Positions 483 through 12,342 of a stretch of DNA of 64,000 nucleotides are shown one piece after another; the first letter of the stretch is position 1, and each line of letters starts with the position of its first letter. Origin of the DNA: Dechloromonas denitrificans. GTDB taxonomy: Bacteria > Pseudomonadota > Gammaproteobacteria > Burkholderiales > Rhodocyclaceae. The notes under the pieces are model-generated. The model had not been told where the DNA came from and ran no database searches. It saw nothing but the letters and a program-made list of their open reading frames with translations. The DNA lies in contig NZ_CP075185.1 of assembly GCF_020510685.1 (NCBI RefSeq), forward strand, positions 1,116,001 to 1,180,000, read 5' to 3'. Made by a program: the position numbers and the translations under genes.

Positions 483-2261
483 TTAGTGAGCGGCCCAGAG
501 CACCAGGTGCTCGATGACGGGGCCGAGAGCCAACGCCGGGACGTAATTCAGGAGGCCGACCAGCAGCACGGTGCCGATCAGCAGCGTGACGAACAGCGGG
601 CCATGGGTCGGCAAGGTGCCGGCGCCAACGGCGATGCGTTTCTTGGCGGCCAGCGCGCCGGCAATGGCGAGCACCGGGACGATCACCCCGAAGCGACCGA
701 ACCACATGGCGATGCCGAGCATCACGTTGTAGAAGGGCGTATTGGCGGACAGGCCGGCAAAGGCGCTGCCGTTGTTGTTGGCGGCCGAGGTGAAGGCATA
801 GAGGATTTCCGAGAAGCCGTGGGCGCCCGGATTGGCGATGCCGGCCCGGCCGTCGACAGCCATCACCGCGATGGCCGTACCGACCAGCACGAGCAGCGGG
901 GTGACCAGGATGGCAATCGAGACCATTTTCATTTCGAAGGCTTCGATCTTCTTGCCCAGGTATTCCGGCGTGCGGCCGATCATCAGGCCGGCCACGAATA
1001 CCGCCAGGATGGCAAAGACCAGCATGCCGTAGAGACCGGTGCCGACTCCGCCGAAGACCACTTCGCCGAGTTGCATGTCGATCAGCGGGACCAGACCGCC
1101 GAGCGGGGTGAACGAGTCATGCATGGCGTTCACTGCGCCACAGGAGGCAAGCGTGGTGATGGTGGCGAACAGACCGGAATCGGCGATGCCGAAGCGGGTT
1201 TCCTTGCCTTCCATGTTGCCACTGCTTGGATCGACAGATAGTTGGGTGAGCAGCGGATTGGCCTGTTGTTCGAAATGCATGGCGGCATAGGCCAGCGCGA
1301 CGAACATCAGGGTCATCGCCGCGAGCACGGCCCAGCCCTGGCGCGTATCGCCGACTATGCGCCCGAAGGTGAAGCAGAGCGCCGCCGGAATCAGGAAGAT
1401 GGCCAGCATTTGGATGAAATTGCTCAGCGGCGTCGGATTTTCATAGGGATGCGCCGAATTGGCGTTCATGAAGCCGCCCCCGTTGGTCCCCAGCATCTTG
1501 ATCGCTTCCTGCGAGGCGACCGGACCCATCGGCAGGGTCTGGGTTTGCGTCTGGGCCGGTTCGGTGATGGCAACGCCCTTGTCATCCTTGAGCGGCTGAC
1601 CGGCATCATCAAGTTTCGGATTGTCAAAGCTGGTTACTTCCAGCGTCGTCACGTCCTTGTAGGCATCGAAATTCTGGATGACGCCCTGGCTGGTCAGGGC
1701 CAGCGCACAAAGGACAGAAAGCGGCAGCAGGATATGCAGCGTGGCACGGGTCAGATCGACCCAGGCGTTGCCGACGGTTTTCGCCGAATGACGTGCAAAG
1801 CCGCGAATCAGGGCGATCACCACGACAATGCCGGTGGCAGCCGAGAGAAAGTTCTGAACTGCCAGACCCAGCATCTGGGTCAGATAACTCATCGTTGCTT
1901 CGCCGCTGTAGCCTTGCCAGTTGGTATTGGCGACAAAGCTGATTGCCGTGTTGAATGACGAATCCGGGCTGACATTGGCGAAAGCCTGCGGATTGAGGGG
2001 CAGGTAGGCCTGCAGGCGTTGCAGGGCGTAAACCGCGAGGAAGCCGAGAAGATTGAATAAAAGAATGGCAAAGGCGTATTTCAGCCAGCCCATTTCCTCG
2101 TCCTGACGGATGCCGCACAGGCGATAGAGCGGGCTCTCGATCTTGCCGGCGAGACGGAAGCGGCCCTCCATCACATTGGCGATGTAAGTGCCCAATGGCT
2201 TGACGGTCACCAGAAGAATGGCGAGAAAAATCCCGAGCAGAATCCAGGCATGATTGCTCAT
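483..2261 (-). CDS. kdpA: KdpA, K+-selective channel-like subunit of the Kdp pump
   Basis: KdpA is the multi-spanning subunit that selects and admits K+ in the KdpFABC pump. The 592-residue product starts [18 protein letters not shown] and keeps the selectivity-filter-like loops of the family: [35 protein letters not shown] and [14 protein letters not shown]. It is about 35 residues longer than E. coli KdpA. Most of the excess is a polar stretch ahead of the second filter (around residues 215-255, with repeated QTQTQT). An upstream in-frame ATG at 2372 exists, but 2261 is preferred because it overlaps the kdpF stop by ATGA and gives the normal KdpA N-terminus. Confidence 0.97.
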
Positions 2262-2350
2262 GAGAAATCCTCCGGATTGATAAGCGCTGCGATCAGGTAG
2301 ACCAGCAGACCGACGGCGACCGCGCCGCTCAGTACGAAAAGCCAGGTCAT
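2258..2350 (-). CDS. kdpF: KdpF, small stabilising subunit of the Kdp pump
   Basis: This 30-residue single-span peptide begins [20 protein letters not shown] and ends NPEDFS. Both the size and the pattern of one transmembrane helix followed by a short acidic tail match KdpF, which stabilises the KdpABC complex in the inner membrane. Its stop overlaps the kdpA start by ATGA, and its own start overlaps the stop of the upstream microprotein by ATGA. Translation of the whole set is therefore probably coupled. It is easy to miss in automated calling because a longer out-of-family extension of the same frame is open upstream. Confidence 0.92.
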
Positions 2351-2439
2351 TTGGCACCCCCAAGCCGGGCACAACCGGCGGCGAGGCCGAGGATCAGGAC
2401 GAAGAACAGCCCGATACCGGCAAGATAGACGAGATCCAT
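2347..2439 (-). CDS. 30-residue membrane microprotein leading the kdp operon
   Basis: I do not recognise a named family. The frame starts with ATG at 2439 and encodes [20 protein letters not shown] followed by a short tail containing a Cys and ending GGAK. It has one hydrophobic span of about 18 residues with an acidic N-terminus and a basic C-terminus. The stop codon overlaps the kdpF start as ATGA, the same coupling seen between kdpF and kdpA. This makes it the first cistron of the operon. From position and topology I infer a KdpF-like accessory or leader peptide of the pump. It could also be only a translational leader that sets kdpF expression. Confidence 0.65.
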
Positions 2440-2690: not shown

Positions 2691-2716
2691 TATATAAATT
2701 AGCGTATTCTTATATA
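2691..2716 (+). promoter_or_regulatory. Inverted repeat and -10-like element just upstream of the efflux/sqr operon
   Basis: TATATAA (2691-2697) and TTATATA (2710-2716) form a perfect 7-bp inverted repeat with a 12-bp spacer, ending one base before the start codon of the membrane fusion protein. A second pair, ATTC and GAAT, straddles the start codon. TATAAA at 2693-2698 could serve as a -10 element, giving a 5' leader of only about a dozen bases. A repressor bound here would block transcription. ArsR-type sulfide or persulfide sensors use short AT-rich repeats of this kind, but the match is only suggestive. Confidence 0.35.
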
Positions 2717-2717
2717 C

Positions 2718-3713
2718 ATGAATAAATACTTCTTTCGCAGCCTGATTCTTGGCCTTTTCGTGGCAGCGACCCCGGCAATCTCGGCCGAGGGTTTGCCGGT
2801 CGTGCAGGTGAAACGGCATCTGGTCGATCTGAGCTTTCCTGCCGAGTCGCTGGTCGAGGCCGTGCAGCAGACGACGGTCGGCGCCCAGGTGGCGGGGCGC
2901 GTGCTCGAAGTGAAGGCCGATGCCGGGCAGGTCGTCAGGAAAGGCGAACTGCTGATGCGCATCGATGCCCGCGAGGCCGAGGAGATGGCCCGCGCCGCGC
3001 AGGCGCAGTACGCCAATGCCAAGGTCAGTTACGAGCGGACGAAAAGTCTCGTCGCCCAGAAATTCATGAGTTCGGCCGCGCTCGACAAGGCCCGTGCCGA
3101 TTTCGACGCCGCCGCCGCCAATCGTGCCGCGGCCGGGGCCAGCCAGAGCCACGCCAGCATCGTCTCGCCGATCAACGGCATCGTCGCCCGGCGCCACGCC
3201 GAGCAGGGCGACATGGCGACGCCGGGCAAGCCCTTGTTCACCATCTACGAACCGGGCAGCTTGCGGGTCACCGCCAGCGTGCCGCAGTACCGGCTGAAGG
3301 AAATGCGCAACGTCAGGACGGCGCGCGTCGAGTTCCCCGAACTCGGCAAGTGGGTCGACGCCACCGGCGTCAATCTGCTGCCGACCGCCGATGCGACGAC
3401 CCATGTCTCGCAGGTCCGCGTCGCGCTGCCGCCATTGCCGGAAGCGACGCCGGGCATGTTCGCGCGCGTCCATTTCGTGATCGGCCAGGCCGAAAAGCTG
3501 ACCGTCCCGGCGGTCGCCGTGTTGCGCCGGGGCGAAGTCGCCGCCGTCTACGTGCAGATGCCCGATGGTCGCCTGAGTCTGCGCCAGCTGCGCCTCGGCG
3601 ATCTGGTCGGGCCGGGCGAGATCGAAGTGCTGGCCGGTCTGCTGGCTGGCGACAAGGTGGTGACCGACCCGGTGAAGGCCGGCATCGCCCAGAAGCAGAA
3701 TTCAGGCAAATAA
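2718..3713 (+). CDS. Periplasmic membrane fusion protein (HlyD/AcrA type) of an RND efflux system
   Basis: The 331-residue protein begins with a signal peptide (MNKYFFRSLILGLFVAATPA, cleavage likely after ISA near residue 23). It then shows the two halves of a lipoyl/barrel-sandwich domain: AQVAGRVLEVKADAG around residues 55-70 and SPINGIVARRHAEQGD around 150-165. An alpha-hairpin rich in Ala lies between them, and a beta-barrel and membrane-proximal region follow. It would link the RND permease to an outer-membrane channel. No lipobox Cys is visible, so it is probably not a lipoprotein. No Shine-Dalgarno sequence is seen ahead of the ATG. It heads a unit with sqr and the permease; the partner TolC-like protein is not in the window. 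Its substrate is unknown. Confidence 0.88.
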   Translation: MNKYFFRSLILGLFVAATPAISAEGLPVVQVKRHLVDLSFPAESLVEAVQQTTVGAQVAGRVLEVKADAGQVVRKGELLMRIDAREAEEMARAAQAQYANAKVSYERTKSLVAQKFMSSAALDKARADFDAAAANRAAAGASQSHASIVSPINGIVARRHAEQGDMATPGKPLFTIYEPGSLRVTASVPQYRLKEMRNVRTARVEFPELGKWVDATGVNLLPTADATTHVSQVRVALPPLPEATPGMFARVHFVIGQAEKLTVPAVAVLRRGEVAAVYVQMPDGRLSLRQLRLGDLVGPGEIEVLAGLLAGDKVVTDPVKAGIAQKQNSGK

Positions 3714-3770
3714 GCGGTTGCTTCACAAAAAGCCGCATTGCTTTCACCACCGTCGAGGAGCGAGACATCC

Positions 3771-5045
3771 ATGGCACACATCATCATCGTAGGAAGTGGT
3801 CTGGGCGGCATGACCATGGCGTTCGAAATGCGCGCCGACGCCCGTCCGGGCGACCGCATTACCGTCGTATCGAACAATCCGAAATTCCATTTCGTGCCGT
3901 CCAATCCCTGGGTGGCGGTGGACTGGCGCAAGCGCGAGGACATCGAGGTCGAGGTCGGGCCGGTGCTGGAAAAGCGCAATATCGATTTCATTCCGGTCGG
4001 GGTCAAGCGCCTGCATCCGGAACGTAACCAGCTCGAACTCGATGACGGCCGTTTCCTGGACTACGATTTTCTGATCCTGTCGACCGGGCCAAAGCTGGCT
4101 TTCGACGAAATCGAGGGTTTCGGCCCGCAAGGCCACACCCAGTCGATCTGCCACGTCGATCACGCGGTCACGGCCGAAAAGAGCTGGCAGGATTTCGTCG
4201 CCGATCCCGGGCCGATCGTCGTCGGTGCCGTGCAGGGGGCCTCCTGCTTCGGGCCGGCTTACGAATTCACGATGATCATGGAAACCGACCTGCGCCGGCG
4301 CAAGATCCGCGACCAGGTGCCGATGACTTTCGTCACCGCCGAACCCTACATCGGCCATCTCGGCCTCGGTGGGGTCGGCGACTCGAAGGGACTGATGGAA
4401 TCGATGTTCCGCAGCAAGCACATCAAGGCCATCTGCAACGCCAAGGTGAGCAAGGTCGAAGCCGGCCAGATGTTCGTCACCGAGCACGACGATGAAGGCA
4501 AGCCGAAGAAGGAGCACGTGCTGCCCTTCAAGTATTCGATGCTGCTGCCGGCCTTCAAGGGGATCGATGCGGTTTTCGGCATCGAGGGCCTGACCAATCC
4601 GCGCGGCTTCGTGCTGATCGACCAGTACCAGCGCAATCCGAAATATCCGAACGTGTACGCCATCGGCGTCTGCGTCGCCATTCCGCCGGTCGAAGTGACG
4701 CCGGTGCCGACCGGTACGCCGAAGACCGGCTACATGATCGAATCGATGGTCACGGCGACTTCGAAGAATGTCCGGGCGGCGCTCGACGGTCGGGCGCCGA
4801 CCGAGAAGGCCACCTGGAACGCCATCTGCCTCGCCGATTTCGGCGATGGCGGCGCGGCTTTCGTCGCCCTGCCGCAGATTCCGCCGCGCAACGTCAACTG
4901 GTTCGGCGAAGGCAAGTGGGTGCATGTCGCCAAGATCGGTTTCGAGAAATACTTCATGCACAAGATCAAGAAGGGCAGCAGCGAAACCTTCTACGAAAAA
5001 TTCATTCTTGATGCCATGGGTATCATGAAACTGAAAGGAAAATAG
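3771..5045 (+). CDS. sqr: Sulfide:quinone oxidoreductase, type I-like
   Basis: This FAD enzyme oxidises sulfide at the membrane and passes electrons to quinone, forming polysulfide or persulfide. The 424-residue product starts MAHIIIVGSGLGGMTMAFEM, with the FAD-binding GxGxxG at the N-terminus. Cysteines 127, 159 and 353 fall at the spacing of the three redox Cys of the Acidithiobacillus enzyme (128, 160, 356), in the contexts SICHVD, GASCFGPAYEF and NAICLADFGDGG. The second FAD contact region reads YAIGVCVAIPP, and an amphipathic lysine-rich C-terminus suits monotopic membrane binding. The start at 3771 was chosen over 3738 for its upstream GAGGAGCGAG and the family N-terminus. It sits 57 bases after the fusion protein and 6 bases before the permease, an unusual placement. 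Confidence 0.92.
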   Translation: MAHIIIVGSGLGGMTMAFEMRADARPGDRITVVSNNPKFHFVPSNPWVAVDWRKREDIEVEVGPVLEKRNIDFIPVGVKRLHPERNQLELDDGRFLDYDFLILSTGPKLAFDEIEGFGPQGHTQSICHVDHAVTAEKSWQDFVADPGPIVVGAVQGASCFGPAYEFTMIMETDLRRRKIRDQVPMTFVTAEPYIGHLGLGGVGDSKGLMESMFRSKHIKAICNAKVSKVEAGQMFVTEHDDEGKPKKEHVLPFKYSMLLPAFKGIDAVFGIEGLTNPRGFVLIDQYQRNPKYPNVYAIGVCVAIPPVEVTPVPTGTPKTGYMIESMVTATSKNVRAALDGRAPTEKATWNAICLADFGDGGAAFVALPQIPPRNVNWFGEGKWVHVAKIGFEKYFMHKIKKGSSETFYEKFILDAMGIMKLKGK

Positions 5046-5051
5046 CTTTTT

Positions 5052-8000
5052 ATGGGTATCTCGGGACGCATCGCCGCCGCCTTCCAGGATTCGCGCATGA
5101 CGCCGTTGCTGGCGTTGGTCGCCTTCCTGCTCGGCCTGTTCGCCACGCTGGTTACGCCACGCGAGGAGGAACCGCAGATCGATGTGACGATGGCCGATGT
5201 CATGGTCGTCTTTCCGGGCGCCTCGGCCAAGGATGTCGAGAATCTCGTCGCCCGGCCGGCCGAGCAGGTGCTGTCGCGGATGCATGGCGTCGAGCATGTC
5301 TATTCCATGGCGCGGCCCGGCATGGCGGTGATCACCGTGCAGTTCGACGTCGGCGTCAAATACAACGACGCCGTCGTTCGCCTGTACGACACCGTGCATT
5401 CGCACCGCGACTGGCTGCCGCCCAATCTCGGGGTCATGGAGCCGGTCATCAAGCCGCGCGGCATCGACGATGTGCCGATTGTCGGGCTGACCTTCTGGAG
5501 CAAGGATCCGGCGCATTCGGCCTTCGACCTGCAGCAGGTGGCGCGCGCCGTCGAAATCGAACTGAAGCGGATCAAGGGGACGCGCGACGTGTCCACCATC
5601 GGCGGTCCGGATCACGCCATTCGCGTCTTGATGGATGCCGACCGGATGACCGCCTACGGCGTGACGCCGCAGGATATCTCCGGCGCATTGAAAATGTCCA
5701 ACGCCTTGCAGTCGTCCGGTAGCCTGACCGCCGGCAACCGCGAAATCCTGGTCCAGACCGGCACCTATCTCGAATCGGCGGCTGACGTGAAACAGCTGGT
5801 GATCTCGGTACACGAGGGCAAGCCGGTATTCATGAGCGACGTCGCCAAGGTCGAGGATGGCCCCGATCAGCCCAAGGCCTATGCCTGGTTCGGCAGCAAG
5901 GAAGGCGAATTCCCGGCGGTGACGATGCAGATTTCCAAGCAGCCCGGCGTCAATGCTGCGGATGTGGCAACGGCGGCGATCAAGCGCATCGACGACCTGA
6001 AAAACGCGGTGATTCCGGAAGGGGTCGAGGTCACGGTGACGCGCAACTACGGCGAAACCGCGACCGACAAGGCGCAGAAGCTGATCGGCAAACTGGTCTT
6101 TGCCACCGCCTTCGTCGTACTGCTGGTCTTCTTTGCCCTCGGCAAGCGCGAGGCGGTGATCGTCGGCGTCGCGGTGACGCTGACCCTGGCTGCCACGCTG
6201 TTCGCTTCCTGGGCCTGGGGGTTCACGCTGAACCGCGTGTCGCTGTTCGCGCTGATTTTCTCGATCGGCATTCTGGTCGATGATGCGATTGTCGTGGTCG
6301 AGAACATCCACCGCTGGCAGGGCCTCTATCCCGAAAAGAAATTGCTGGAAATCATTCCGCCGGCAGTCGATGAAGTCGGCGGCCCGACCATCCTGGCGAC
6401 GCTGACGGTAATCGCCGCATTGTTGCCGATGGCTTTCGTGACAGGCCTGATGGGCCCTTACATGAGCCCGATTCCGATCAATTCGTCGATGGGCATGGCC
6501 ATTTCGCTGGCCGTCGCCTTCGTCGTCACGCCCTGGTTGGCCGGCAAGCTGATGAAGTCGCACGCCGCTGGCCATGTACCGCCGGTCTCGAAACTCGACA
6601 GCCAGCTGGATTCGACTTTCCGCAAGCTGCTGACGCCCTTCCTCGATCCGCTCAAGGGGGCCGCGATGCGCCTCAAGCTCGGCATCGCCATTGGGCTGCT
6701 GATTCTCGGTTCGGTGTCGCTCGCCTACTTCCAGCTCGTCGTCTTGAAAATGCTGCCCTTCGACAACAAGAGCGAATTTCAGGTCATCCTCGACATGCCG
6801 GTCGGCACTCCGCTCGAGGAAACGGCGCGGGTGCTGCATGAAATCGGCAGCGAACTGGCCAGGGAAGACGACGTGACCAATTACCAGGCCTACGCCGGCA
6901 CCGCCAGCCCGATCAATTTCAACGGTCTGGTCCGTCAGTACTACCTGCGGGCCGTGCCGGAAAAGGGCGATATCCAGGTCAATCTGGCCGACAAGCATCA
7001 CCGTTCGCGGCAGAGTCACGAGATTGCCGTCTCGGTGCGCCAGCGCATCGAGACCATCGGCAAGAGGAACGGCGGCGTCGCCAAGGTCGTCGAAGTGCCG
7101 CCCGGGCCGCCGGTGATGTCGCCGATCCTCGCCGAAATCTACGGCCCGGACTACAAGGGCCAGATGAGCGTCGGCAAGCAGGTGCGCGCCGTCTTCGAAA
7201 AGACGCCGGACATCGTTGCCGTCGACGACTACATCGAGGCCGATGCGCGCAAGGCCGTGCTGCATGTGCTGCAAAGCAAGGCGGCGCTGCTCGGCGTGGC
7301 GCAGAGCGACATCATCGAAGTGGTCAGCACCGGCCTGGCCGGCCTCGACGTGACGCCGGCCCACAACGCCGACAGCAAGTTCGAGATCCCGGTGCGCGTC
7401 ACCTTGCCGGCCGAGCAGCAGTCGAATCTCGATGCCCTGCTGAAACTCCGCGTCCGGGCGCAGAGCGGCCAGCTGGTGCCGATTTCGGAAGTCGTCGAAG
7501 TGCGCGATGCGGCGCGCGAGAAGGCCATCTACCACAAGGACCTGCTGCCGGTGGTGTACGTCGTCGGCGACATGGGCGGCAAGCTCGATTCGCCGCTCTA
7601 CGGCATGTTCGACATCCGCTCGCAGATCAAGGGCATGGAGCTCAAGGAAGGCGGCACGCTGGGCGAATGGTTCATCCGCCAGCCGAGCGATCCCTATGCT
7701 GGCTACAGCGTCAAGTGGGACGGCGAATGGAAGGTGACCTACGAGACCTTCCGCGACATGGGCCTGGCCTATGGCGTCGGGCTGATCCTGATCTACCTGC
7801 TGGTCGTCGCCCACTTCGGCAGCTACCTGGTGCCGCTGATCATCATGGCACCGATCCCGCTGACCATCATCGGCGTCATGCCGGGTCATGCGCTGTTCGG
7901 CTCGCAATTCACTGCGACCTCGATGATCGGCATGATCGCGCTGGCCGGCATCATCGTTCGCAATTCAATCCTGCTGGTCGATTTCATCAAGCTGCAGGTT

Positions 8001-8234
8001 GCCGCCGGCATGCCGTTCGCCGAAGCGGTCGTCCAGTCGGCCGCCGTGCGCGCCAAGCCGATCGCGCTGACCGCGTTGGCCGCGATGCTCGGCGCGCTGT
8101 TCATTCTCGACGATCCGATCTTCAACGGTCTGGCTCTCAGCCTGATTTTCGGCATCCTGGTCTCCACGCTGCTCACGCTGGTGGTGATTCCGGTTCTCTA
8201 TTTCTCAGCCTTTCGCAAGGAGCATCAAGCATGA
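5052..8234 (+). CDS. RND-family efflux permease (AcrB-like, HAE superfamily)
   Basis: This 1060-residue inner-membrane antiporter has the full RND length and duplicated architecture: a TM1 start, a large periplasmic loop, and TM2-6 around residues 340-560. A second periplasmic loop and TM7-12 follow. The proton-relay pair in TM4 is intact in GILVDDAIVVVENIHR (Asp410, Asp411). In TM10 the conserved Lys of AcrB is replaced by Arg970 in GIIVRNSILLVDF, which separates it from classic multidrug pumps. Its stop overlaps the next gene by ATGA. Co-transcription with sulfide:quinone oxidoreductase suggests that it exports a product or by-product of sulfide oxidation; this is inference. A long antisense open frame across it is a GC shadow. 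Confidence 0.93.
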   Translation: MGISGRIAAAFQDSRMTPLLALVAFLLGLFATLVTPREEEPQIDVTMADVMVVFPGASAKDVENLVARPAEQVLSRMHGVEHVYSMARPGMAVITVQFDVGVKYNDAVVRLYDTVHSHRDWLPPNLGVMEPVIKPRGIDDVPIVGLTFWSKDPAHSAFDLQQVARAVEIELKRIKGTRDVSTIGGPDHAIRVLMDADRMTAYGVTPQDISGALKMSNALQSSGSLTAGNREILVQTGTYLESAADVKQLVISVHEGKPVFMSDVAKVEDGPDQPKAYAWFGSKEGEFPAVTMQISKQPGVNAADVATAAIKRIDDLKNAVIPEGVEVTVTRNYGETATDKAQKLIGKLVFATAFVVLLVFFALGKREAVIVGVAVTLTLAATLFASWAWGFTLNRVSLFALIFSIGILVDDAIVVVENIHRWQGLYPEKKLLEIIPPAVDEVGGPTILATLTVIAALLPMAFVTGLMGPYMSPIPINSSMGMAISLAVAFVVTPWLAGKLMKSHAAGHVPPVSKLDSQLDSTFRKLLTPFLDPLKGAAMRLKLGIAIGLLILGSVSLAYFQLVVLKMLPFDNKSEFQVILDMPVGTPLEETARVLHEIGSELAREDDVTNYQAYAGTASPINFNGLVRQYYLRAVPEKGDIQVNLADKHHRSRQSHEIAVSVRQRIETIGKRNGGVAKVVEVPPGPPVMSPILAEIYGPDYKGQMSVGKQVRAVFEKTPDIVAVDDYIEADARKAVLHVLQSKAALLGVAQSDIIEVVSTGLAGLDVTPAHNADSKFEIPVRVTLPAEQQSNLDALLKLRVRAQSGQLVPISEVVEVRDAAREKAIYHKDLLPVVYVVGDMGGKLDSPLYGMFDIRSQIKGMELKEGGTLGEWFIRQPSDPYAGYSVKWDGEWKVTYETFRDMGLAYGVGLILIYLLVVAHFGSYLVPLIIMAPIPLTIIGVMPGHALFGSQFTATSMIGMIALAGIIVRNSILLVDFIKLQVAAGMPFAEAVVQSAAVRAKPIALTALAAMLGALFILDDPIFNGLALSLIFGILVSTLLTLVVIPVLYFSAFRKEHQA

Positions 8235-8458
8235 CCACTGAACGCATCATCCGCATCATGGCGGGTTTCTTCATCCTGCTCTCGCTGGCCCTCGGATTCG
8301 ACGGCAGCCCGATTTTCGTCAGCAAGTGGTTCCTCGCCTTTACCGCCTTCGTCGGTTTCAACCTGCTGCAAAGTGGCTTTACCGGCTTCTGTCCGCCGGA
8401 AAAATTGCTGACCAAACTGGGCGTCAAAAAGGGTAGCGGCGGCAGTTGCTGCGGTTAG
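8231..8458 (+). CDS. Small membrane protein, YgaP-type transmembrane domain (DUF2892) with Cys-Cys tail
   Basis: The 75-residue product starts MTTERIIRIMAGFFILLSLA and has two hydrophobic spans separated by a short polar turn (GSPIFVSKW), then FTGFCPPEKLLTKLG and a glycine-rich end SGGSCCG. This is the transmembrane module that in YgaP is fused to a rhodanese domain, here free-standing. Such modules commonly accompany sulfur-handling genes. The ATG overlaps the permease stop (ATGA), so it is translationally coupled to the efflux unit. One Cys lies in the FCPP motif and two adjacent Cys at the C-terminus could carry persulfide or bind metal. No rhodanese gene is nearby. Confidence 0.8.
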   Translation: MTTERIIRIMAGFFILLSLALGFDGSPIFVSKWFLAFTAFVGFNLLQSGFTGFCPPEKLLTKLGVKKGSGGSCCG

Positions 8459-8620: not shown

Positions 8621-10570
8621 TTGAAGCAACGCCCGGCCCTGTGCGGCAACAAAATCGTCCTGGTAATGTTGGCCGCAATCTCCCTCGTCTGGCTATTGAT
8701 CGGCCTTGATCTATGGGCCCTCCATTTGCGACCGAGCGGCGCAACGGCCAGCCTGTCGGGCAGTGAGACGGAGGGCGACGTCGCCGCAAAAATGCTGCCG
8801 CTGCTCGTCGCCGGCTTCCTGCTCTCGGTCCTCGCCGTGTTCGGCGGTCGCTTCGTCTTCCGCATATTGCGGCAGATGCTCGAGCAGCTTCATTTGCAGC
8901 GGATGATCATCGACCATACCTCGGAGGCGATGATGGTCACCGATCTGGCGCAGCGCATCCTCACCGTCAGTCCGGCCTTCGAGCAAATTACCGGCTACCC
9001 GGCCGCCGAGGTGATCGGCCGGACGCCATTGATGCTGAGTTCCGACCGGCATGGTCCGGAGTTCTACCAGGCGATCTGGGCGCGGGTCGCCGAGACCGGC
9101 CAGTGGGAGGGCGAGACCTGGGATCGCCGCAAGGACGGCCAGATCTACCCCAAGCAGATGCGCATCCGGGCGGTTCGCGAGGGGCGCCAGCAGCGCGTTT
9201 CGCATTACGTCGCGGTCTTCTCCGACATCAGTGCGCACAAGGCACAAGAGGCGCGCATCGACTATCTGGCGCACCACGATCCGTTAACCAGCCTGCCCAA
9301 CCGCCTCGCCCTCGACATCCATCTCGCCGACGTGCTTGGCGCGGCGGCCCGCAGTGCCAGCCGGGTGGCGGTGATCATCATCGATCTCGACCATTTCAAG
9401 ACGGTGAACGATTCGCTCGGCCATCACGCCGGCGACCTGTTGCTCGGCGAAATCGCCCGCCGACTGCAGGCCATTCTCGAGGTCGGGAGCCGGCTGTTCC
9501 GCCTCGGCGGCGACGAGTTCGTCGTGGTGCTCGAAGAAGCGAATCAGGCCGAAACCGTCGTCGAGCTGGTACACCAGATCGAGCGGGCGTTTACCGAACC
9601 CTGCCAGGTCAATGATCACCTGCTGCATACCAGCCCGTCGATCGGCATCAGTCTCTATCCGATCGATGGCGAGACGGCCGAGACGCTGGTCCGCAATGCC
9701 GATACGGCGATGTATTACGCCAAGTCGAATGGCCGCAACAATTACCAGTTTTTTGCCGAACCGATGAATGCGGCAGCCAACAAGCGCCTGCATCTGGAAA
9801 CCGAATTGTGGGATGCGCTGGCCCAGAATCAGTTGTTGCTGCACTACCAGCCGCAGATCGATCTGCCGAGCGGCAACATCGTCGGCGTCGAGGCGCTCGT
9901 GCGCTGGCAGCACCCGGTCCGCGGCATGATCGGGCCGGGCGAATTCATTCCGGTCGCCGAGGAATGCGGCCTGATCCTGCCGCTCGGTCATTGGGTCCTG
10001 CTCACCGCCTGCCGCCAAGCGAAGGCCTGGATCGACGCCGGGGTCGATATCGGCGAAATTGCCGTCAATATCTCGGCGCTGCAGTTCCGCCAACCGGAAT
10101 TCGCCCAGTCGGTGCATGCCATCCTGCTCGAAACCGGCTTGCCGCCCGAGCGGCTGGAACTGGAAATCACCGAGAGCACGGTGATGCACAGCGCCGACTC
10201 ATCGATCAAGACGCTGGCCGAATTGAAGCGGATGGGCGTCAAGCTGGCGATCGACGATTTCGGTACCGGCTATTCGTCGCTCGCCTACCTGCGGCGTTTC
10301 CCGATCGATCGCCTGAAAATCGACCGCGCCTTCGTCGCCGATGTCGAGTCGGACACCGACGCCGCCTCGCTGGTCTCCTCGATCATTTCGCTCGGTCGCT
10401 CGCTGGGCCTGCATCTGGTAGCCGAGGGCGTCGAGAATTCGGCACAGGCCGATTTTTTGCGGGCCCTCGATTGCCAGCGCGTCCAGGGTTTCCACTTCTT
10501 CCGGCCGGTGGTCGCAGAAGAAGTCGCCGCCGTCAGCGAAATTATCCGGCTTGCCCGAGGCGCCGCCTGA
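8621..10570 (+). CDS. Membrane-bound PAS-GGDEF-EAL protein (c-di-GMP synthase/phosphodiesterase)
   Basis: The 649-residue protein has two N-terminal membrane spans (about 12-33 and 62-84), a PAS domain (about 95-205), a GGDEF domain with intact GGDEF at 296-300, and an EAL domain with EAL at 424-426 and DDFGTGYSSL further on. Both catalytic signatures are complete, so synthesis and hydrolysis of c-di-GMP are both possible. The RxxD inhibitory site five residues before GGDEF is absent (EVGS occupies it). The frame opens just after a TAG at 8612, and the only start that keeps the first membrane helix whole is TTG at 8621. ATG at 8666 would cut into it. It stands alone, 54 bases upstream of the next operon. 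Confidence 0.9.
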   Translation: MKQRPALCGNKIVLVMLAAISLVWLLIGLDLWALHLRPSGATASLSGSETEGDVAAKMLPLLVAGFLLSVLAVFGGRFVFRILRQMLEQLHLQRMIIDHTSEAMMVTDLAQRILTVSPAFEQITGYPAAEVIGRTPLMLSSDRHGPEFYQAIWARVAETGQWEGETWDRRKDGQIYPKQMRIRAVREGRQQRVSHYVAVFSDISAHKAQEARIDYLAHHDPLTSLPNRLALDIHLADVLGAAARSASRVAVIIIDLDHFKTVNDSLGHHAGDLLLGEIARRLQAILEVGSRLFRLGGDEFVVVLEEANQAETVVELVHQIERAFTEPCQVNDHLLHTSPSIGISLYPIDGETAETLVRNADTAMYYAKSNGRNNYQFFAEPMNAAANKRLHLETELWDALAQNQLLLHYQPQIDLPSGNIVGVEALVRWQHPVRGMIGPGEFIPVAEECGLILPLGHWVLLTACRQAKAWIDAGVDIGEIAVNISALQFRQPEFAQSVHAILLETGLPPERLELEITESTVMHSADSSIKTLAELKRMGVKLAIDDFGTGYSSLAYLRRFPIDRLKIDRAFVADVESDTDAASLVSSIISLGRSLGLHLVAEGVENSAQADFLRALDCQRVQGFHFFRPVVAEEVAAVSEIIRLARGAA

Positions 10571-10624: not shown

Positions 10625-11491
10625 ATGAAAATCGGATTTCTCGGCTTAGGCATCATGGGGCGCCCGATGGCCCTCAATCTCCTCAAGGGCGGTCATTCGG
10701 TGACCGTCTGGGCACGGCGCGCCGCATCGATGCAACCGCTGCTCGAAGCCGGGGCGAAAGCCGCGACCGGGCCGGCCGATGCCGCCCGCGGCCAGGAACT
10801 GGTGATTTCCATGGTGGCCGATGCGCCGGATGTCGCCGAGGTGATGCGCGGCGTTGCCGGCGGTGCCGAAGCGGGGCTGGTCGCCGTCGACATGAGTACC
10901 ATCGCACCGGCCGCCGCCCGGCGGATCGGTGAGGAACTGGCCGCCGCCGGGGTCGATTTTCTCGACGCCCCGGTTTCCGGCGGCGAAGTCGGGGCCATTG
11001 CCGGCACCCTGTCGATCATGGCCGGCGGTTCGTCTGCCGCCTTTGCCAGGGCCTTGCCGGCCTTCGAGTGCCTGGGCAAGAACATCGTCCATGTCGGGGC
11101 CAGCGGCGCCGGGCAGGTGACCAAGGCGGCCAACCAGATCGTCACCGGCATGGGCGTGCTGGCGGTTGCCGAGGCCTATGCCTTTGCTGCCAAGAACGGC
11201 GTCGATTGCGGCAAGGTGCGCGAAGCGCTGCTCGGCGGTTTCGCTTCTTCCAAGATTCTCGAAAACCACGGCCAGCGCATGCTCGACCGCAATTTCAAGC
11301 CGGGTTTCAAAAGCTGGATGCATGAGAAGGATCTGAACATCGTCATGCAGACGGCGCACGAACTCGGCCTCTGTCTGCCGGGCTCGGCCGCGACGGCCCA
11401 GATGTTCAACGCCATGGTCGGTTCCGGGTTGGGCGAAGAGGATTCGATCGCCGTGCTCAAATTGCTGGAAAAGCTCTCAGGCCAGGCATGA
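10625..11491 (+). CDS. NAD(P)-dependent beta-hydroxyacid dehydrogenase (tartronate semialdehyde reductase/3-hydroxyisobutyrate dehydrogenase family), copy 1
   Basis: This family reduces or oxidises small beta-hydroxyacids such as tartronate semialdehyde or 3-hydroxyisobutyrate. The 288-residue product has the N-terminal Rossmann motif GFLGLGIMGRPMA, the substrate loop DAPVSGGEVGAIAGTLS, and catalytic Lys167 in GAGQVTKAANQ, followed by the helical C-terminal domain. Size and motif order are normal. TCGGAG lies 6-7 bases ahead of the ATG, and TAAAAT at 10592-10597 is a possible -10. Its stop overlaps the start of a close paralogue by ATGA. A role as tartronate semialdehyde reductase would fit the glycolate/hydroxypyruvate operon 28 kb away, but the substrate cannot be read from the sequence. 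Confidence 0.85.
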   Translation: MKIGFLGLGIMGRPMALNLLKGGHSVTVWARRAASMQPLLEAGAKAATGPADAARGQELVISMVADAPDVAEVMRGVAGGAEAGLVAVDMSTIAPAAARRIGEELAAAGVDFLDAPVSGGEVGAIAGTLSIMAGGSSAAFARALPAFECLGKNIVHVGASGAGQVTKAANQIVTGMGVLAVAEAYAFAAKNGVDCGKVREALLGGFASSKILENHGQRMLDRNFKPGFKSWMHEKDLNIVMQTAHELGLCLPGSAATAQMFNAMVGSGLGEEDSIAVLKLLEKLSGQA

Positions 11492-12342
11492 AGATCGGTT
11501 TCATCGGACTCGGCGTGATGGGGCGCCCGATGGCGCTGCATCTGCAGCGGGCCGGGCATGAACTTATGGTCTGGGCGCGTCGCCCGGCTGCGGCCGACGG
11601 CTTGCCGGCGATCACCTGCGCGACGCCGGCGGAACTCGGGCGGCGCTGCGCGGTGGTGTTCACGATGGTTACCTCGAGCGCCGATGTCGCCGCTCTCGCC
11701 CTCGGTGCCGACGGCCTAAGCGAAGGCATGGCGCCCGGCTCGGTGCTGATCGATTGCTCGACCATCGCGCCCGACGCCGCCCGGCAGATATCCGCCCAAC
11801 TCGCGGCAAAGGGCATCGCCATGCTCGACGCCCCGGTTTCCGGCGGCGCCCAGGGCGCCATCGACGCGACGCTGGCGATCATGGTCGGCGGCGATGCCGG
11901 CGTGCTGGAAAAGGTCCGGCCGCTGCTCGAGTGCCTGGGCCGGCGCATCGTCCATGTCGGCCCGAACGGGGCCGGCCAGGTTGCCAAGGCCTGCAACCAG
12001 ATGGTCATGGTCGCCGCCATCGAAGCGGTGGCCGAGGCAATGCGCCTGGCGGCCGCTTCCGGCGTCGATTGCGCCAAGGTGAAACAGGCCCTGGCCGGCG
12101 GCTCGGCGGCCTCGCGGGTGCTTGAGGTGATGGGCGAACGCATGGTCCGCCGCGATTTCTCGGCCGGGGTCGAAGCCCGGCTGCATCACAAGGATTTTGG
12201 CCTGGTGCTCGAAGCGGCCCGCGCCAGCGGGGTGGCCATGCCGTTGACCGCGGCCGTCGGCCAACAACTGAATGCGCTGATGGCGCAAGACTGGGGCCGC
12301 GACGATACGGCTTCACTGTTACGTGTACTGGAAACCCGATGA
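11488..12342 (+). CDS. NAD(P)-dependent beta-hydroxyacid dehydrogenase, copy 2 (tandem paralogue)
   Basis: This 284-residue product is a paralogue of the preceding gene. It keeps the same landmarks at the same positions: GFIGLGVMGRPMA at the N-terminus, DAPVSGGAQGAIDATLA from residue 114, and catalytic Lys167 in GAGQVAKACNQ. It therefore arose by tandem duplication without loss of catalytic residues. The two copies differ between residues 35 and 90 and in the C-terminal helices, so their substrates may differ. It is coupled by ATGA to the paralogue upstream and to the PilZ gene downstream, giving a three-gene operon. Candidate activities are tartronate semialdehyde reductase, 3-hydroxyisobutyrate dehydrogenase or succinic semialdehyde reductase. 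Confidence 0.85.
   Translation: MKIGFIGLGVMGRPMALHLQRAGHELMVWARRPAAADGLPAITCATPAELGRRCAVVFTMVTSSADVAALALGADGLSEGMAPGSVLIDCSTIAPDAARQISAQLAAKGIAMLDAPVSGGAQGAIDATLAIMVGGDAGVLEKVRPLLECLGRRIVHVGPNGAGQVAKACNQMVMVAAIEAVAEAMRLAAASGVDCAKVKQALAGGSAASRVLEVMGERMVRRDFSAGVEARLHHKDFGLVLEAARASGVAMPLTAAVGQQLNALMAQDWGRDDTASLLRVLETR

Follow-up and report, generated by a model that had tools for sequence, protein, structure and literature searches.

An RND efflux operon with an embedded sulfide:quinone oxidoreductase gene in Dechloromonas denitrificans and its predicted ties to sulfane sulfur and TolC

Closest described systems and the four-gene operon

In Azospira suillum PS, the genes Dsui_3443 to Dsui_3440 encode a membrane fusion protein (MFP), a sulfide:quinone oxidoreductase (SQR), a cation/multidrug efflux pump, and a product of unknown function, and excerpts of the paper describing them report that they are highly expressed under H2S and were flagged by Bar-seq (PMC5358917). 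We analyzed an operon with the same order (compared from the text of that paper alone), consisting of MFP, SQR, resistance-nodulation-division (RND) permease, and YgaP-like small membrane protein genes on the + strand at 2718-8458 of a 64-kb stretch of Dechloromonas denitrificans DNA, hereafter the window (the whole stretch analyzed, C1:1116001-1180000 of the 4.62-Mb single-contig host genome). The operon itself is already known; what is new is the clade of its permease, a palindrome upstream of the operon, and a link to a TolC operon, for none of which an earlier report was found in the CC-licensed PMC literature. The unit is most probably a tripartite pump that sulfane sulfur induces and that works with a co-regulated TolC. 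Its tie to sulfide and sulfane sulfur is supported by recurrent linkage to SQR and to ArsR proteins of the persulfide-sensor type, by the shared palindrome, and by the published induction in A. suillum, where the excerpts of PMC5358917 answer for the same gene order a question that a sequence-only reading of the window had raised, namely, whether sulfide induces the operon.

The authors of the A. suillum study suggest metal-sulfide export, and the excerpts of their paper mention neither an operator nor a TolC link nor a permease clade (PMC5358917). RND pumps near two-Cys ArsR regulators are listed in excerpts of a second paper, which counts them among proved or likely sulfur-compound transporters (PMC12423496); beyond these 2 papers, no report of polysulfide or persulfide export by an RND pump was found in the CC-licensed PMC literature. 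The SqrR/BigR/YgaV regulons resemble the present case in having a two-Cys ArsR gene beside the pump in several lineages and partly matching palindromes at ygaV and HlyU, but the window locus has no ArsR gene, and the excerpts of PMC12423496 do not describe this permease clade. HAE1 tripartite pumps (AcrAB-TolC, MdtABC) likewise combine an adaptor with a permease carrying an Asp pair in transmembrane helix 4 (TM4), whereas the window permease belongs to a separate clade with Arg for Lys in TM10 and scores under the NCBIfam multidrug cut-offs, and the window operon is without TolC. HME pumps (CusA/CzcA) share the RND architecture, but the window permease has Arg for Glu at TM10 and falls far under the TIGR00914 cut-off. 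In E. coli ygaVP, too, a YgaP-like membrane domain occurs together with a persulfide sensor; the window protein, however, lacks a rhodanese domain, whereas YgaP of E. coli carries the annotation thiosulfate sulfurtransferase.

The 4 genes of the operon are as follows.

2718..3713, + strand: RND periplasmic adaptor (MFP), 331 aa; RND_mfp TIGR01730 178.7 bits, cut-off 94.9; Pfam HlyD_D23 and HlyD_3
3771..5045, + strand: SQR, 424 aa, with Cys127, Cys159, and Cys353; PDB 3sz0 520 bits; Pfam Pyr_redox_2
5052..8234, + strand: RND permease, 1060 aa, a member of the Arg-TM10 clade; ACR_tran 516.8 bits; separate clade in the tree
8231..8458, + strand: YgaP-like small membrane protein (DUF2892), 75 aa, with a Cys-rich tail; PF11127 (YgaP-like_TM) 51.3 bits

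The compact order claimed from the sequence alone is borne out by the coordinates, with gaps of 57 bp between the MFP and SQR genes and 6 bp between the SQR and permease genes, and an overlap of the permease and YgaP-like genes at ATGA. The window SQR matches PDB 3sz0 best among PDB entries, over residues 2-422 (full length), and Cys127, Cys159, and Cys353 align with cysteines of the 3sz0 chain, in agreement with the earlier claim that all 3 are retained. The entry 3sz0 is one of several near-identical SQR entries, from Acidithiobacillus ferrooxidans, and the aligned residues are presumably the redox cysteines. The window protein is accordingly classed, by alignment, as a predicted SQR of the 3sz0 type. 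It is the sole strong SQR match in the host genome; the 2 other matches are partial and low-scoring, and a flavocytochrome c sulfide dehydrogenase (FCSD) gene accounts for one. The YgaP-like protein matches only PF11127 in Pfam and the solved YgaP domain at E 0.0019. Its FCP-motif Cys is kept in 96 of 97 relatives and a tail Cys in 74 of 97.

The permease clade and its sulfur-gene neighbors

The permease clears the curated Pfam ACR_tran cut-off of 28 bits and so belongs to the RND superfamily, yet it is under the cut-off of every NCBIfam RND model that it matched. Against the multidrug models it scored 457.5 bits for NF033617 (cut-off 1250), 369 for NF000282 (1250), and 306.6 for TIGR00915 (940.35), and assignment as an ordinary HAE1 multidrug permease was rejected on these missed cut-offs. 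Assignment as an HME metal permease was likewise rejected, with 270.7 bits against a cut-off of 701.45 for the CusA/CzcA model TIGR00914. Solved RND pumps scored at most 229 bits with the window permease and full-length orthologs approximately 1300-2100; the nearest named permease, from an Azonexus MAG, is 90% identical. Two sites of the permease mark its place among RND proteins.

6279..6284, + strand: codons of the TM4 pair Asp410-Asp411; the first Asp is present in 162/162 and the second in 160/162 aligned clade members
7959..7961, + strand: codon of Arg970 in TM10; Arg in 162/162 aligned clade members and in 0/11 valid outgroup rows; Lys in AcrB, MdtB, and MdtC

A FastTree phylogeny (174 rows; rows shorter than 950 aa were left out of tree and alignment) separated 162 relatives from AcrB, MdtB, MdtC, CusA, and the sampled paralogs of the host's own genome with support 95, a value to be read with a long-branch warning and with an outgroup of 12 rows, of which 11 are valid and 1 (L002) is a wrong-frame artifact. 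A grouping with these pumps, for which the sequence-only reading had proposed this phylogeny as a check, thus fails, and the permease is placed by sequence in an RND clade of its own. The same reading had noted the TM4 Asp pair and an Arg replacing the TM10 Lys, and both were confirmed. Because Arg is found in all clade members and is absent from the valid outgroup rows, which have Lys (9), Glu (1, CusA), or Leu (1), the TM10 Arg is a mark of the clade and not a peculiarity of the window permease. As a separate observation, an Arg-TM10 permease subclade with long open frames (L214-L224, L226, and L141) had sulfur, YgaP-like, and TolC markers in 0 of its 13 rows.

Conservation was examined in one genome per genus of the window's family, 61 in all, and marker genes were counted in a range of 6 kb around the permease (of the duplicate loci L143 and L176, only L176 was kept). 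The four-gene order recurs in relatives and is not unique to one strain, as a proposed search of other genomes might have found. The permease was identified in 45 of the 61 genomes (E <= 1e-200) and SQR in 23 genomes at 24 places (E <= 1e-60), 12 of them directly upstream of the permease and 1 further within 4 kb. SQR was found in 22 of the 45 genomes with the permease vs 1 of the 16 without (Fisher p = 0.0024). At the level of loci, 14 of 46 family permease loci had SQR in range, including 1 weak match (L136, 142 bits) that lies outside the E <= 1e-60 set, vs 0 of 40 control loci of the AcrB-like RND group, hand-picked from the same phylum sample among the matches listed (Fisher p = 6e-5). 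YgaP-like genes accompanied 39 of the 46 family loci. Among 80 named-contig permease loci, 21 had SQR, 59 a YgaP-like gene, and 16 an ArsR gene with both YgaV-type cysteines. SQR, YgaP-like, rhodanese, dioxygenase, and YeeE markers were identified at 0 of the 40 control loci, and the one ArsR among them is a methyltransferase fusion without the first sensor Cys.

The SQR gene occupies several positions relative to the pump. It lies between the MFP and permease genes in the window and in L010, L012, L025, L034, and L058, after the permease in L067, L077, L079, L080, L084, and L086, and after YgaP-like and TolC genes in L036, L037, L061, L062, and L068; in the last 5 loci and others, TolC, SQR, and permease genes form a single cluster. 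Distant relatives on plasmids (approximately 42-44% identity) lie near SQRs of other kinds: a Paracoccus locus has a mitochondrial-like SQR with MBL-fold, YeeE, sulfurtransferase, and ArsR genes; a locus of the cyanobacterium Pseudanabaena has an SQR nearest 3hyv with ArsR and rhodanese genes; and a Methylocella locus has an SQR nearest 3sz0. Since most permease loci have no nearby SQR, SQR is an accessory and not the core of the pump unit. We did not adopt a rhodanese neighbor as a constant mark of sulfur function; in Thiobacillus- and Gallionella-type loci, where the pump operon lies between a rhodanese gene and a two-Cys ArsR gene, this rhodanese belongs to a secB-/gpsA-like neighborhood (named by eye).

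Palindrome, TolC operon, and candidate repressor

A palindrome lies directly in front of the operon.

2696..2715, no strand assigned: predicted operator AAATTAGCGTATTCTTATAT, 20 bp, 2 bp before the MFP start codon; 13/14 fixed positions of ATATWAG-N6-CTWATAT

This is the only site with at least 12 matching positions in the 64-kb window, and the host genome has 3 places with at most 1 mismatch: one exact, the window site, and one more. Palindromes of at least 12/14 were identified upstream of MFP in 33 of 43 family loci (shuffled sequence, 0.23%), 28 of 75 loci on named contigs, and none of 39 controls, counts that are partly circular, as the motif was derived from the same upstream regions; the scan upstream of TolC and the exact-match scan of the 61 genomes cover other DNA too. 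Exact palindromes occurred at 26 sites in 23 of the 61 family genomes, whereas the reversed control pattern gave 0. Nine of these lie in front of the pump operon, at 1.0-2.6 kb from the permease and with MFP or MFP and SQR between, and 15 precede a pcm(-rhodanese)-TolC operon, together 24 of 26. The remaining 2 are found where an AhpD-like gene begins and between a methyltransferase gene and the front of a fusion gene with adjacent CoA-disulfide/persulfide reductase, rhodanese, TusA, and DsrE domains (L328 531-3002, - strand; split over 2 frames in the assembly). This distribution suggests that the palindrome is an operator. The kdpA gene lies upstream of the operon on the opposite strand (window 483-2372, - strand), and the predicted operator is thus between divergent genes.

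The exact palindrome of the host genome (C1:4385422 on; L285 5423-5442) stands 19 bp before pcm, which is followed by genes for a rhodanese and a TolC-type channel.

L285 5462-6115, 6112-6438, and 6446-7774 (C1:4385422 on): pcm, rhodanese, and TolC genes of the pcm-rhodanese-TolC operon

Markers for TolC, rhodanese, and persulfide dioxygenase were sought within 6 kb of the window permease and not found, so their absence from the unit, claimed earlier from the sequence, holds locally, but TolC and rhodanese are encoded in this separate operon with an exact palindrome. A search of the host genome for persulfide dioxygenase, run without a positive control, gave no match. Among the best 30 TolC loci of the family, 17 had a palindrome of at least 12 upstream of the TolC ortholog (shuffled, 0.33%), comprising 16 of 25 in permease-bearing genomes and 1 of 5 in the rest. 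Exact palindromes precede the TolC gene by 0.8-1.2 kb in 14 cases, and in the 15th (G006), pcm and rhodanese are followed by a TolC start cut by the contig end. Between palindrome and TolC, pcm was present at all 12 of these 14 sites that were examined and rhodanese at 11, one of these being only a short match; rhodanese is absent from the TolC-side operon of G018 and only partly seen in G004. The host genome has 15 pairs of OEP repeats elsewhere than the pump locus. A channel under the same predicted control as the pump is present, and the TolC of the pcm-rhodanese-TolC operon is the pump's likely outer-membrane partner.

Two-Cys ArsR proteins are candidates for the regulator of these sites. 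Seven Thiobacillus-, Sulfurimicrobium-, and Gallionella-type loci carry a two-Cys ArsR gene before MFP, with a palindrome near the ArsR/MFP junction scoring at least 12 in 5 (L022, L024, L029, L030, and L044), 11 in L023, and below 11 in L026. L025 has 2 sites between ArsR and a dioxygenase-like gene, and L085 has one between ArsR and the YgaP-like gene. In E. coli, the ygaV promoter has an 11/14 match just before ygaV, the sole one at that score in 4 kb, and a published HlyU operator oligonucleotide matches at 10/14. YgaV was footprinted at the ygaV promoter and forms a Cys31-Cys98 tetrasulfide, according to excerpts of PMC9774250. The host genome encodes 2 ArsR proteins with both sensor cysteines (C1:3801240 and C1:2207110), one of which adjoins rhodanese and secB-like genes (named by eye). 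The repressor is predicted, from sequence, to be an SqrR/BigR-type two-Cys ArsR encoded away from the pump. At 12 loci (L035-L068), an ArsR of a second type, lacking the first sensor Cys but carrying a C-x(3)-C pair near its end, is divergent to MFP; for the palindrome, 11 of these loci score below 12 and only L061 at least 12. Another host locus (L286, C1:2688000-2700000) has molybdopterin oxidoreductase, ArsR, cytochrome c, and flavocytochrome c sulfide dehydrogenase genes, with a 12/14 palindrome at 5346 that is near chance level in the host genome.

Proposed mechanism and competing explanations

We propose that the 4 genes supply the inner components of a tripartite efflux pump, the production of which would be released as sulfane sulfur (persulfide, polysulfide) accumulates. 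An SqrR/BigR-type two-Cys ArsR repressor would occupy the palindromes at 2696-2715 and before pcm-rhodanese-tolC, and persulfidation of its cysteines would free both promoters. SQR would oxidize sulfide at the membrane to polysulfide or S8, and permease, adaptor, and co-regulated TolC would expel sulfane-sulfur species picked up in the periplasm or at the inner membrane's outer leaflet. The substrate would most likely be hydrophobic or amphiphilic, such as a long polysulfide, S8, or an organic polysulfane, and the YgaP-like protein is probably a small pump partner or a sulfur-handling membrane protein. The explanation as a whole, as worded here with induced pump, co-regulated TolC, and sulfane-sulfur export, is one we favor with moderate confidence. 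That the pump's substrate is sulfane sulfur itself has, in our judgment, not quite an even chance.

Several observations weigh against this explanation. According to excerpts of PMC5358917, A. suillum oxidized sulfide at the same rate after deletion of sqr or of Dsui_3440-3443 (0.49 vs 0.50 mM/h; sqr data not shown there). The sequence-only reading had proposed a sulfide-detoxification unit with a polysulfide or persulfide pump, and its tie to sulfide and sulfane sulfur stands on linkage, palindrome, and published induction; the export part fared less well in view of these deletions, although such export may occur. The sulfur linkage itself is uneven. From 94 rows of the phylum sample, 40 were taken (all 17 full-length ones from other genomes at 53-60% identity, 20 at 42-45%, and 3 at 40-44%; 3 loci split in 2 pieces were left out), and a sulfur marker was found in range in 11 and none in 29, including no marker in 17/17 loci at 53-60% and in 12/20 at 42-45%. 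The palindrome scored at least 12 in only 2/17 and 1/20 of these groups, respectively. Flammeovirga and Vibrio permease loci show no nearby sulfur enzyme, and a Rhizobium locus has ArsR and DUF2892 genes but no SQR. On the starred branches of the tree, at least 22 changes of the sulfur label are required, so the link has been gained and lost often; one 13-row subclade has no sulfur marker.

The predicted regulation meets similar difficulties. Host-genome sites with at most 2 mismatches number 11 vs 5 for the reversed control, about twofold, and G018, a genome without the permease, also has an exact site before pcm-TolC. The ArsR at C1:3801240 scores 74.7 bits vs the NCBIfam BigR cut-off of 155, the likely host ArsR gene has no site of at least 11 in its own 3.3-kb locus, and 12 of 22 pump-clustered ArsR genes belong to the second ArsR type, which lacks the first sensor Cys. 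Sites of SqrR in R. capsulatus are given as ATTC-N8-GAAT. Further, most of the permeases are free of Cys (113 of 132).

Some of these observations fit a general envelope or hydrophobe pump, induced by sulfane sulfur among other stresses, in which the sulfur link would be regulatory and the substrate an organic hydrophobe that sulfur has damaged or displaced. In 9 of the 17 marker-less loci at 53-60% identity, TolC adjoins MFP, so that the clade occurs there as TolC-MFP-RND; the 13-row subclade is marker-less, the TM4 Asp pair resembles that of AcrB, and sulfane sulfur is reported to induce MarR in excerpts of PMC8614764. The recurrence of SQR linkage, in various arrangements and with SQRs of more than one kind, is, however, not obviously favored by a pure stress link, and the set of exact palindromes is narrow, with nearly all of them at 2 operons. 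We consider this explanation unlikely, though it is the strongest of the competitors. The reading of the A. suillum authors, that the pump exports metal or metal-sulfide complexes formed when sulfide meets cellular metals and that SQR is merely co-expressed, draws on several RND pumps and iron-uptake proteins that rise with H2S (PMC5358917, excerpts); in our data, the methyltransferase gene beside one of the 26 exact palindromes gave a weak match to TehB (tellurite), at 23 bits against a cut-off of 20.4. It is opposed by the low TIGR00914 score, by the separation of the permease from CusA, and by Arg where CusA has Glu in TM10, as well as by the 24 exact palindromes at the pump and TolC operons, and we judge it improbable. 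A chance or passenger SQR unrelated to the pump, to which the adjacent SQR in only 12 of 45 family permease genomes might point, was rejected as highly improbable given its absence from the control RND loci and its at least 3 positions relative to the pump genes, also in a cyanobacterium.

Sulfane-sulfur export by the induced pump, if it takes place, would bear on a wider question, for the exit route of zero-valent sulfur from sulfide-oxidizing cells is, as far as we know, unsettled. Tentatively, and with rather more doubt than confidence, the clade may represent a dedicated, widespread sulfur-export machine, in which SQR-made polysulfide or S8 would cross the outer membrane by way of the Arg-TM10 RND permease and the co-regulated TolC upon persulfide-sensing release, an undescribed class of zero-valent sulfur transport. 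The palindrome, co-regulated TolC, and Arg-TM10 clade offer concrete experimental handles in the culturable A. suillum PS, for which an operon deletion exists, and these sequence marks could serve to separate sulfur-linked RND pumps from ordinary ones annotated as multidrug transporters.

Downstream of the operon, a PAS-GGDEF-EAL protein is encoded directly after it (window 8621-10570); in a Vibrio locus (L188), an EAL gene also follows the permease, but on the other strand. Two overlapping tandem genes (window 10625-11491 and 11488-12342) come next, with the look, by eye, of the 3-hydroxyisobutyrate dehydrogenase family.

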